From assembly GCA_020029535.1 (NCBI GenBank), contig JAIBJM010000019.1, positions 1-36,770 on the forward strand: 36,770 bases of DNA. The letters run 5' to 3'. The stretch is from Gammaproteobacteria bacterium (GTDB taxonomy: Bacteria; Pseudomonadota; Gammaproteobacteria; Steroidobacterales; Steroidobacteraceae). The notes under the pieces were generated by a model that saw nothing but the letters and a program-made list of their open reading frames with translations, was not told the DNA's origin and ran no database searches. This document shows, one piece after another, positions 1,686-20,494 of this stretch; within the stretch, counting starts at the first letter, position 1; each line of letters begins with the position of its first letter. The position numbers were made by a program, and so were the translations under genes.

Positions 1686-2011
1686 GTGAGTAACGAACAC
1701 ATACTGCACACATCCGATACCCGATTCGATGCCGATGTCCTCAAGTCGGACAAACCGGTATTGCTGGATTTCTGGGCCGAATGGTGCGGGCCATGCAAGA
1801 TGATTGCACCCATCCTTGATGAGCTGGCGGTTGAATACAAGGACCGCCTGCGTATCGCCAAGTTGAACATCGATGAGAACCCGCAGACCCCGCCGCGCTT
1901 CGGCATTCGCGGCATTCCGACGCTGATGCTGTTCAAGAACGGCACCGTCGAGGCGCAGAAGGTCGGCGCCCTGTCGAAATCGCAGCTGGCCGCCTTCCTG
2001 GACCAGAATCT

Positions 2012-2015
<4 letters not shown>
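1686..2015 (+). CDS. trxA: Thioredoxin 1
   Basis: A 109-residue cytoplasmic thioredoxin, the normal family length. It reduces protein disulfides using electrons from thioredoxin reductase. The redox motif WCGPC is at residues 33-37, and the cis-proline of the GIPTL segment follows about 40 residues later. There is no signal peptide. The start is GTG, with a GGAGG Shine-Dalgarno ending 10 bases upstream. The stop codon overlaps the proposed GTG start of rho (TGTGA), which suggests translational coupling. trxA next to rho and opposite rhlB is the usual gammaproteobacterial order. Confidence 0.97.
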
Positions 2016-18110: not shown

Positions 18111-18557
18111 TCAGCCGGAGCTGGACAGTCGGGCAGCTGCGGCGCGTACCGCCAGCTCGTAGCCGATTGGACCCAGTCCGGTGATGGTTCCCACCGCGAT
18201 GTCGGAAAAATAGGAATGGTGGCGGAAGGCTTCACGTGCCGCGGTATTCGACAGGTGAACCTCGATGAAAGGCAGTTTGGTGGCCAGCAGCGCGTCGCGC
18301 AGCGCCACGCTGGTATGCGTCAGCGCAGCAGGATTGAAGATCAGGAAATCGATGCCCTCGGTGGCCGCGGCATGAATGCGGGCGATCAGCTCGTGTTCGG
18401 CGTTGCTCTGCGCGGCGATCAGCTGATGGCCCAATTCGGTCGCCAACTGCGCCGAACGCGATTCAATCTCCGCCAGGGTTGCGGTACTGTACTGCTGTGG
18501 CTCACGCGTGCCGAGCCGATCCAGATTGGGTCCGTTCAGTAGTAGCAGTCGGGCCAT
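18111..18557 (-). CDS. aroQ: 3-dehydroquinate dehydratase, type II
   Basis: A 148-residue cytoplasmic enzyme of the shikimate pathway that dehydrates 3-dehydroquinate. It forms dodecamers in this family. Motifs are [17 protein letters not shown] near the N-terminus with the catalytic loop Arg, the following Tyr of [21 protein letters not shown]-type substrate loop (here [17 protein letters not shown]) and EVHLSN. The start MARLLLLNG at 18557 was chosen because it matches the family; an in-frame ATG at 18599 lies in the leader. It precedes accBC, the common gammaproteobacterial order. Confidence 0.96.
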
Positions 18558-18660
18558 GGTTTTATAAACAATCAGGCCCACTGGGCCGACGGCGCGCAAT
18601 CTACCCTAAATCGCCGCCGTTTGGGTACTTTAGATGCAAATTCGCGGCAATTAGCGCAAG
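18558..18660 (-). promoter_or_regulatory. Leader region of aroQ-accBC
   Basis: This 103-base gap is the largest within the leftward run and so may hold an internal promoter. I see only weak boxes (a TTGCGC with a poor -10). A small GC hairpin, GGCCCA/TGGGCC (18575-18587), lies close to the aroQ start. Confidence 0.3.
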
Positions 18661-19368
18661 TCAGGCTGGCTTTGCGCCGCCCCGGACCCGTTCAGTCGCC
18701 AGCCGCTTCAGTTGATCCGCAATGCGCTGCCGGGTGGCGGGCAGATCCTGCTTTCCGGCGTCGAGATCGGCAATGGCCGCCAGTATGGCAGCGGCCTCTT
18801 CCCTGTGCAGCTCACCCACCTTCACGGCCACGATGCGTTCGCGGCCATCGACGAAAATCGAGAATGGCAGCACCAGCTCCATGCCGAATTTCGCAGCGGC
18901 ATCGACGCCATCCTGTTCGCCCACCAGCAGCGGATAGTCGACAGCGGTCTTGTTCACGAAGGCCTGCACGGCGTCGTGAAAATCCACGGCAATGCCGACG
19001 ATCTGCAGCTGCTGTCGGCCATGGCTGCGGTACAGATCGTTCAGCAGCGGAATTTCGCGGCGGCAGGGTATGCACCAGGTGGCCCAGAAATTGATGATGG
19101 TGGGTTGGCCGCTGTACTCCTTCAGGGAACGCAGTCTGCCTTGCAGGTCCTGCAGCTGAATGTCGGGGACCTGTTTGGGCACGGCCTGGCCGGCTGGCTG
19201 ATCCGCTTTGTTGCTGGTATCCGGCGCTGGGGCGGCTGCCACGCTTGCCGCGGCGGGCGGTTCGGCAGGCGTCGGCGGCGGGGCCGCATTGAACTGCCGA
19301 TACAGCAGGAATCCGCCGACGGCGCAGATCACAGCCACCGCGGCCAGTCCCGGCAATGGACGATTCAT
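18661..19368 (-). CDS. TlpA/ResA-like membrane-anchored thioredoxin
   Basis: A 235-residue periplasmic thioredoxin-fold protein. Residues 6-24 form an N-terminal membrane anchor. An Ala/Pro-rich spacer (about 27-62) and a TlpA-like domain (about 65-220) follow, with the redox motif WCIPC at 98-102 in the context INFWATWCIPCRREIPLL. The cis-Pro region reads LPFSIFVDG. Such proteins reduce disulfides in the periplasm, for example in cytochrome c maturation. The start MNRPLPG at 19368 overlaps the stop of the DsbD-like gene by 4 bases (ATGA). That coupling suggests that the DsbD alpha domain is its redox partner, which is an inference. A longer in-frame start at 19464 would lie inside the upstream gene. 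Confidence 0.9.
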   Translation of the reverse strand: MNRPLPGLAAVAVICAVGGFLLYRQFNAAPPPTPAEPPAAASVAAAPAPDTSNKADQPAGQAVPKQVPDIQLQDLQGRLRSLKEYSGQPTIINFWATWCIPCRREIPLLNDLYRSHGRQQLQIVGIAVDFHDAVQAFVNKTAVDYPLLVGEQDGVDAAAKFGMELVLPFSIFVDGRERIVAVKVGELHREEAAAILAAIADLDAGKQDLPATRQRIADQLKRLATERVRGGAKPA

Positions 19369-19997
19369 GTCCCACTCCGCCTGTTCCGTATCAGGCCGCG
19401 CCGGCGCGCGATGACAAAGCCGGCCAATGCAACGATCAGCAGCGATACGGAGGCCGCCAGCCATCGCCAGCGGCTGGCATCGGGCACGGCGTCAGGGGGT
19501 GATCCGGGTGCCGGCAACTGCAGCATCAGCAACGCGGTCTGCGGCGGATAGCACAGGCCGGCGTCAGCGCAGCCCTGGTAAGTGGTCTTCAGTGTCACCG
19601 GCAGCGGAGTTTCGGCGCGGCGGATCAGCGGCAGCTCCACCACCAGTGAGTTGTAGTACACCACCTGCCGGCCGAAGTACTCGTCAGTGTGTTCGGTGCC
19701 CGGCGGCAAGCTGATGGCGCCCAATGCCGGGTCCGCGCCTTCGACGGCGAACTTCAACCGATCGCGATACAGGTAATAGCCGGGGGCAATGATCCAGCTG
19801 AGCTGGATGCGTGTTGCATCCAGCGCCGCCGCCTGCAGCTGGAAAGCCTGCTCGACGGGCAGAAAGTCCCGGTCTTGCCGCTTGCCCAGCAATGCGTCCA
19901 GCTGGGCATGGGCCAGGCCGCCGATGGCCAGCAGGCAGATGCCCAACAACCCGAGAGAATGTTTCTCGAATGACGTAGAAGGTGGTTTGTAGATCAT
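19365..19997 (-). CDS. Stand-alone DsbD N-terminal (alpha) domain with one membrane anchor
   Basis: A 210-residue protein with a signal peptide (about 1-31, ending GLAHA) and a DsbD alpha domain. Similarity to the E. coli DsbD N-terminus runs through FLPVEQAFQL, ATRIQLSWIIAPGYYLYRDRL and TTYQGCADAGLCYPPQT. Cys143 and Cys149 correspond in spacing to the active-site pair Cys103 and Cys109 of E. coli DsbD. After the domain comes a single transmembrane helix (about 173-195) and a basic tail, then the stop. The eight-helix electron-transfer domain and C-terminal thioredoxin domain of full DsbD, which has over 550 residues, are absent. A TlpA-like thioredoxin gene follows, overlapping by 4 bases. 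dsbD beside aroQ is the usual location, so this may be a reduced dsbD. Confidence 0.85.
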   Translation of the reverse strand: MIYKPPSTSFEKHSLGLLGICLLAIGGLAHAQLDALLGKRQDRDFLPVEQAFQLQAAALDATRIQLSWIIAPGYYLYRDRLKFAVEGADPALGAISLPPGTEHTDEYFGRQVVYYNSLVVELPLIRRAETPLPVTLKTTYQGCADAGLCYPPQTALLMLQLPAPGSPPDAVPDASRWRWLAASVSLLIVALAGFVIARRRGLIRNRRSGT

Positions 19998-20158: not shown

Positions 20159-20200
20159 GACAACGATTCCCATTAAACGCACTTTGAAGGAGTGTCATCC

Positions 20201-20494
20201 ATGAAGATTCGTCCTCTTCATGACCGCGTGATCGTCAAGCGCCTGGAAGCAGAGCGCAAGTCGGCCGGCGGCATCGTGATCCCGGACAGCGCCTCCGAAA
20301 AGCCCAGTGAGGGCAAGGTGGTAGCAATCGGCAACGGCAAGATTCTCGAAGACGGCGGCGTGCGCAAGCTCGACGTCAAGGTTGGCGACAAAATTCTCTT
20401 CGGCAAGTACAGCGGCACCGAGGTCAAGGTTGACGGTGACGAGCTGATCGTGATGCGCGAAGAAGACATCTTGGCCGTCATCGAGAGCAAGTAA
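20201..20494 (+). CDS. groES: Co-chaperonin GroES
   Basis: A 97-residue protein, the standard length. Seven copies form the lid of GroEL. It begins [16 protein letters not shown], has the mobile loop around [15 protein letters not shown] (20-34) that binds GroEL, and ends [10 protein letters not shown]. The start at 20201 has AAGGAG eight bases upstream; an in-frame ATG three codons earlier (20192) overlaps that signal and was rejected. It is the first gene of the groESL operon, 12 bases before groEL. Confidence 0.98.

Follow-up and report, generated by a model that had tools for sequence, protein, structure and literature searches.

The window analysed in this study, a stretch of 36,770 nucleotides, contains a gene that encodes a DsbD alpha domain on its own, and we infer, with a probability of roughly 0.7, that its product is an adaptor which is reduced in trans by an ScsB-like protein encoded on another contig of the same genome, and which passes electrons on to the TlpA protein encoded by the next gene and probably to CcmG.

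The product of the lone gene has a hydrophobic segment for export at its N-terminus, followed by a DsbD alpha domain and a single C-terminal helix (Table 1). With the first Met omitted (209 residues), it matched the Pfam DsbD_N family at 118 bits, against a cut-off of 25, over residues 42-157, while the NCBIfam model for entire DsbD reached 123 bits, against a cut-off of 330, and covered only positions 9-140 of its 574. No match to DsbD_TM (PF02683) was found in the protein or its contig by the Pfam search, and the thioredoxin-like gamma domain is absent, the gene stopping after the single helix. The PDB sequence matches were to E. coli DsbD alpha (3PFU, 1VRS, 1Z5Y, and 1JZD), and these structures include alpha trapped with gamma (1VRS), with CcmG (1Z5Y), and with DsbC (1JZD). 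A model of the 209 residues, built from 6 sequences and with pLDDT of 81-97 in ten-residue blocks of the alpha domain, predicted a helix at 173-206 and matched the same E. coli entries with TM-scores of 0.81-0.89 by target length; the structure of an ScsB alpha domain (6C29) matched this model only weakly (E 1.7e-3). In BLAST comparisons the lone alpha showed 42-52% to canonical DsbD and did not significantly match any ScsB-like protein that was tried. With its paired cysteines, its PF11412 match and its fold match, the protein is a DsbD alpha domain. Scanning the genome collection with the window alpha yielded 8 loci, and 5 of these were taken for structure alignment only; PADLOC returned no result.

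Table 1. Features of the lone alpha locus in the window and of the chimeric locus in genome G033
Feature	Position	Strand	Basis
Lone DsbD alpha gene, 210 aa	19365..19997	-	ORF, Pfam, PDB sequence and model matches
DsbD alpha (DsbD_N, PF11412) domain	19524..19871	-	119.8 bits, genome search
Cap-loop motif D-E-Y-F-G, residues 105-109	19671..19685	-	Equivalent of E. coli D68-G72
Active-site Cys143	19569..19571	-	Cys in 21/21 lone and 52/52 full-length alphas compared
Active-site Cys149	19551..19553	-	Cys in 21/21 lone and 52/52 full-length alphas compared
C-terminal single hydrophobic helix, residues 177-197	19407..19469	-	Kyte-Doolittle 2.41 over 19 residues
ATGA stop/start overlap of alpha and tlpA	19365..19368	-	tlpA start at -4 in 19/25 lone-alpha loci
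tlpA, membrane-anchored TlpA/ResA-type thioredoxin, 235 aa	18661..19368	-	AhpC-TSA, 80 bits
TlpA CIPC active site, residues 99-102	19063..19074	-	Sequence
aroQ, listed from TTG	18111..18599	-	LLLNGPNL motif, name by eye
groES, listed from GTG, divergent	20192..20494	+	PLHDRV motif, name by eye
G033 chimera with separate ScsB-type alpha	L046:3668-6016 and L047:3733-5416

The lone gene lies at the usual place of dsbD, which is marked by the divergent groES and in which aroQ is the usual gene after dsbD-tlpA. Because relatives carry a full-length dsbD followed by tlpA here, between groES and aroQ, the lone alpha gene is a dsbD without its membrane and gamma parts. Past tlpA the gene order is aroQ, accB, accC, and prmA, and groES-groEL is divergent upstream (names by eye); the true start of aroQ is probably downstream of the listed TTG. 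Elsewhere in the window, a thioredoxin gene with a WCGPC site (1686-2015, plus strand) directly precedes a rho-like gene (names by eye) and is a possible cytoplasmic donor. An earlier note, made from the window alone, had correctly recognized that both active-site cysteines are kept, that the electron-transfer membrane domain is missing, that the next gene overlaps by ATGA and encodes an anchored thioredoxin, and that the position next to aroQ is the usual one for dsbD. Its description of the two genes as fused does not hold, since alpha and tlpA are two overlapping genes.

The window TlpA bears an N-terminal hydrophobic segment and has the TlpA-type thioredoxin fold with a CxxC motif, its closest solved structures being ResA and TlpA. 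The best NCBIfam models, ResA (85 bits, cut-off 170) and TlpA (74 bits, cut-off 230), both remained under their cut-offs, and the protein is not a CcmG/DsbE (TIGR00385, 47 bits against a cut-off of 123). A TlpA-like gene follows full-length dsbD in all 20 relatives' loci fetched, and in the larger locus set TlpA was found after full-length dsbD in 46 of 52 rows. Therefore, TlpA is an ancestral neighbour of dsbD and the probable acceptor of the lone alpha, rather than a stand-in for the lost domains. The earlier note had also considered that TlpA and alpha might pass electrons between themselves as a self-contained relay, which finds no support because such a pair still has no route across the membrane and because tlpA also follows full-length dsbD. 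A related reading, in which TlpA and the lone alpha act as a gamma-alpha relay in reversed order, from the ScsB-like membrane domain or a CcdA to TlpA, then to alpha, and then to CcmG or others, is unlikely. It would agree with the membrane anchor and CIPC site of TlpA, with the overlap of its start and the alpha stop, and with PMC5403849, according to which ScsB of Caulobacter feeds a TlpA and a peroxiredoxin; it would also suit one lone-alpha genome, G104, which has no ScsB match but adjacent CcdA-like and thioredoxin genes. However, as the 20 loci carry TlpA beside a gamma-bearing DsbD, TlpA was present before gamma was lost, and it resembles ResA and TlpA, not the Thioredoxin_7-type gamma domain of the ScsB-like protein.

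When the window's own genome (G000; 2.87 Mb in 120 contigs) was searched in all six frames, a single PF02683 match emerged at E <= 0.001; it lies on contig C1, in an ScsB-like frame of 718 aa that also holds a second DsbD_N domain. No canonical DsbD membrane domain and no second canonical DsbD were found by the six-frame PF02683 and DsbD_N searches. Because the sole PF02683 match is on C1, a frameshift in the window does not conceal a canonical membrane domain. It could be argued that a full-length dsbD was cut short artificially by a frameshift or in assembly, the assembly being in 120 contigs, and an error at 19365 was one of the conditions that the earlier note had named as fatal to its proposal; the probability of this is negligible and we regard it as ruled out, given that no frame of the genome holds a canonical DsbD_TM and that in 24 other genomes, too, tlpA comes directly after a lone alpha.

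The ScsB-like protein on C1 combines PF11412, PF02683, and PF13899 in one chain (DsbD_N 64 bits, DsbD_TM a weak 53 bits, Thioredoxin_7 58 bits) with the motifs MPC, ATPCT, and WCITC. It thus unites the alpha, membrane, and gamma domains and bears a pair of membrane cysteines as well as a CxxC, which is the ScsB layout as given in PMC8900818, and its gene is followed by a redoxin gene. The search for a CcdA or a full DsbD that the earlier note had called for, run with PF02683 and DsbD_N, therefore gave no canonical DsbD but a complete ScsB-like protein, and its suggestion that the reduced DsbD may be fed by a membrane protein elsewhere gains a candidate donor, as judged from sequence. As the scsB-like gene is on a different contig from the lone alpha, linkage gives no aid in pairing the two. 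A CcmG above the family cut-off is also encoded (C3:10419-10919, 164 bits), as in all 14 genomes tried, including this one.

Among relatives, 154 genomes of the family that were at least 85% complete, including G000, and 68 genomes of a second family were surveyed. Lone alphas were present in at least 21 of the 154 among the matches listed, namely in G000 and G007 (genus g1), G065 (g18), G016 (g3), and all 17 genomes of g7, and in 4 of the 68 (G056, G201, G220, and G233), with frames of 189-254 aa; for the family, 27 chosen genomes were gone through a second time. Apart from G054, which was dropped because contig ends split the gene, the full DsbD_N tables showed no genome with a lone alpha beside a full-length dsbD; the alpha of G011 runs into a contig end and was classed with the non-lone ones for the tables and the tree. 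Short DsbD_N frames of 25-71 bits (G010:C210, G023, G024:C15 and C49, G225:C27, and G233:C52) were left uncounted and appear to be of the ScsB type or more distant. In the 25 loci that were read, tlpA directly follows the lone alpha in every case, and groES is divergent in 24, as an aroQ motif is near in 24. Two tandem alpha domains are common in full-length DsbD of this order (e.g., L110, L111, and L114). Within the titles and abstract openings listed for the open-licence literature searched, no description of a free-standing DsbD alpha was found.

The lone membrane anchor that the earlier note described is present in the window protein as the C-terminal helix, but it cannot be taken as a general trait of lone alphas: the helix is clear in 15 of the 25, borderline in G108, and absent in 9. 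The four lone alphas of the second family (L044, L178, L179, and L180) have, by eye, a lipobox-like N-terminus (e.g., LFSGC) and no C-terminal helix, which is perhaps an alternative anchoring in that family. Therefore, the membrane attachment of the lone alpha varies.

The short form is conserved among relatives, as the 25 genomes show, and in all 21 lone alphas compared both cysteines are invariant, together with the Q-G-C-A, the cap-loop Asp and Gly, and the YYLY motif. Some positions that are fixed in full-length DsbD drift in lone alphas; for instance, the cap-loop Phe is found in 52 of 52 full-length alphas versus 10 of 21 lone ones. Selection was assessed in 22 lone pairs with dN < 0.25, of which the 14 listed are all from g7. 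In 11 of these 14, pN/pS was 0.19-0.27, compared with 0.22-0.36 for the 14 full-length pairs listed, and the anchorless G020/G102/G110 group was looser at 0.37-0.51; the window alpha has no near lone relative, and the values cover g7 pairs only. Judged by these ratios, the lone alpha is not decaying where selection is measurable, that is, in most of g7. Of the two parts of the remaining objection foreseen in the earlier note, relatives with a full-length dsbD at this place do exist, but the decay does not appear where it could be measured. It is quite improbable, then, that the short gene is a functionless remnant of a dsbD made redundant by the gain of ScsB and now being lost. Such a loss could account for the series of genomes with canonical DsbD only, with canonical DsbD and ScsB, with a lone alpha and ScsB, and with ScsB only (G111 and G221), and for the higher ratios of the anchorless group. 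Against it stand the retention of the lone alpha in all g7 genomes searched, its two invariant cysteines, the tlpA that always follows, the ratios of the other 11 g7 pairs, which are like those of full-length alphas, and the lipobox-like N-terminus that the second family carries instead of the helix.

The lone arrangement appears to have arisen repeatedly. On a tree of 74 rows of alpha plus TlpA (271 columns; good support for 37 of 71 inner branches; the G029 and G133 loci outside the tree, and six full-length rows represented by alpha only, no TlpA having been found), the lone form requires four changes: G000 and G007 are nested in their own genus, G016 and genus g7 form one clade, G065 falls in a g18 clade, and the fourth change is in G056, from the second family, which has a long branch and lies with the outgroup rows. 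A single inherited lone form in the family, with the 21 lone rows as one clade, was rejected (p-AU 0.0006), the tested group having been named after the tree was seen.

Canonical membrane domains were not found in any of the 25 lone-alpha genomes, based on PF02683 for 22 of them and on the DsbD_N and A1 tables only for G201, G220, and G233; with PF02683, no strong canonical DsbD_TM was present in the 21 family genomes or in G056. The profile A1, which represents the ScsB-type membrane and gamma parts and was built from 12 rows (10 taken from genomes with a lone alpha), matched 26 of the 154 family genomes at E <= 1e-40, comprising 19 of the 21 with a lone alpha and 7 of the 133 others (G004 and G066, each with an internal stop, G019, G158, G111, G024, and G033). 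The ScsB-like copy of G065 was missed by PF02683 and caught by A1. At 300 bits or more, A1 matched 9 of the 68 genomes of the second family, i.e., all 4 with a lone alpha and 5 of the 64 others: G225, G210 (internal stop), G212, and G248, which have a full-length dsbD, and G221, which has neither; canonical DsbD scored at most 124 bits on A1 in this family. The association between ScsB and the lone alpha gave Fisher values of 1.3e-16 in the family and 1.5e-4 in the second family, with descent ignored. When descent was considered, three independent pairs were available on well-supported branches, and the lone alpha changed in the same direction as ScsB in 2.6 of the 3 on average and never in the opposite one (median p 0.25). 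Because there are only three pairs, this test is unable to reach 0.05; its ScsB states were set by hand, the stop-bearing copies of G004 and G066 were scored as present, and five rows were omitted.

In total, 23 of the 25 lone-alpha genomes have an ScsB-like match. The exceptions are G101 (91% complete, 320 contigs), in which no donor was found, and G104 (99% complete), where a CcdA-like protein and a thioredoxin are present instead. In G104 the thioredoxin gene adjoins the CcdA-like gene (L171:1417-2618, minus strand), a possible alternative donor. Canonical DsbD is retained in some genomes with ScsB (G019, G158, G225, G212, and G248), and neither canonical DsbD nor a lone alpha is present in G111, G024, and G221. 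For G111 and G221, which have a complete ScsB-like protein and in which no canonical DsbD and no lone alpha were found, this is perhaps the last step of a replacement, or else a matter of assembly gaps.

At the groES-tlpA place, G033 encodes a 782-aa protein in which two canonical alpha domains are followed by ScsB-type membrane and gamma parts. Its alphas showed 42-54% to canonical DsbD and about 25%, barely significant, to ScsB, and its membrane and gamma parts 43-57% to ScsB and 26-31% to canonical DsbD. The ScsB-type alpha of this genome is free-standing (344 aa) on contig C35, directly before a redoxin gene of the same kind as the one after the complete scsB-like gene of G000. The two genomes thus differ in which adaptor is free: in G000 the ScsB alpha is fused and the DsbD alpha is free, and in G033 the DsbD alphas are fused and the ScsB-type alpha is free. 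Another free ScsB-type alpha, in a frame of 298 aa that precedes a redoxin with CPFVGKHY, is found in G019 (L049, contig C45, 3407-4303, plus strand), besides a full-length DsbD and a full ScsB-like protein. The redoxin motif was beside only 3 of the 18 complete ScsB-like loci inspected (G000, G111, and G158), so the ScsB alpha and the redoxin are no general pair. Although it comes from a single genome, the chimera is the strongest argument that an ScsB-type engine may drive a canonical alpha.

The chimera also bears on which part of the donor would reduce the lone alpha. The alpha cysteines are retained in each of the 12 complete ScsB-like proteins examined, so gamma already has a fused partner, and the lone alpha could instead be reduced by this fused alpha or by another reductant, such as the CcdA and thioredoxin that G104 has in place of ScsB. 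Such a donor other than the ScsB-like gamma is very improbable, as the canonical alphas of G033 sit directly on ScsB-type membrane and gamma parts, no further PF02683 match was found in G000, and gamma is called the 'sole legitimate' reductant of E. coli alpha in PMC7347389.

In the reading that we prefer, that of an adaptor served in trans, dsbD would have lost its membrane (beta) and gamma parts, with alpha surviving as a free adaptor. Electrons from cytoplasmic thioredoxin would cross the membrane via the ScsB-like protein of C1, whose gamma domain (or own alpha domain) would act in trans to reduce the disulfide between Cys143 and Cys149 in the lone alpha. With its single helix keeping it at the membrane, the lone alpha would then reduce the adjoining TlpA and probably CcmG, clients that are presumably unserved by the ScsB-like protein's own alpha domain. 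Katzen and Beckwith are said to have found that DsbD domains expressed separately cooperate in vivo. In E. coli, alpha reduces CcmG, DsbC, and DsbG, and the cap loop has its described role, according to PMC7347389.

Several known systems resemble parts of this arrangement. Like nDsbD of E. coli and Neisseria, the window protein has the alpha domain (34% identity to 3PFU, TM-score 0.86 by target length) with its paired cysteines and cap loop, and relatives have the groES-dsbD-tlpA-aroQ place; unlike DsbD, it lacks the eight-helix membrane domain and the gamma domain, and ends in one helix. The proposed donor is like the ScsB family in having alpha, membrane, and gamma in one chain (Cho et al. 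2012, as reflected in PMC5403849, PMC4460558, and PMC8900818), whereas the lone alpha itself is of the canonical DsbD type and not of the ScsB type. Systems of CcdA with a separate thioredoxin (ResA, CcmG, or CcsX) likewise place the membrane engine and the periplasmic carriers on separate chains, but in the lone-alpha genomes the piece that is separated is the alpha adaptor. To our knowledge, CcdA systems have no alpha domain. CcdA corresponds to the beta domain alone according to PMC4460558. Truncated dsbD genes are also found near blaNDM on E. coli plasmids (L176 and L177); one record also shows cutA nearby, the other pieces of groES/groEL. They share short DsbD_N frames with the lone alphas and, in one record, proximity to groES/groEL pieces, but they are on mobile DNA and do not form a conserved chromosomal operon, and the two regions read carry no tlpA annotation; these fragments are unrelated to the conserved lone alpha.

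Taken more broadly, we see even odds that the DsbD/ScsB family is a plug-in network, in which one beta-gamma engine per cell would serve several cassettes of alpha adaptor and client in trans, such as DsbD alpha with TlpA and ScsB alpha with the redoxin, and in which evolution would re-cut the fusion of adaptor and engine. DsbD has usually been studied as a single chain, with adaptor and engine joined. A free alpha beside its probable client, without the canonical engine in every genome in which it was found, offers a direct test of whether alpha by itself determines which clients are served and of whether an ScsB-type engine is able to drive a DsbD-type alpha. For annotators, it means that a genome without a full-length DsbD may still run steps that depend on DsbD alpha, such as cytochrome c maturation.
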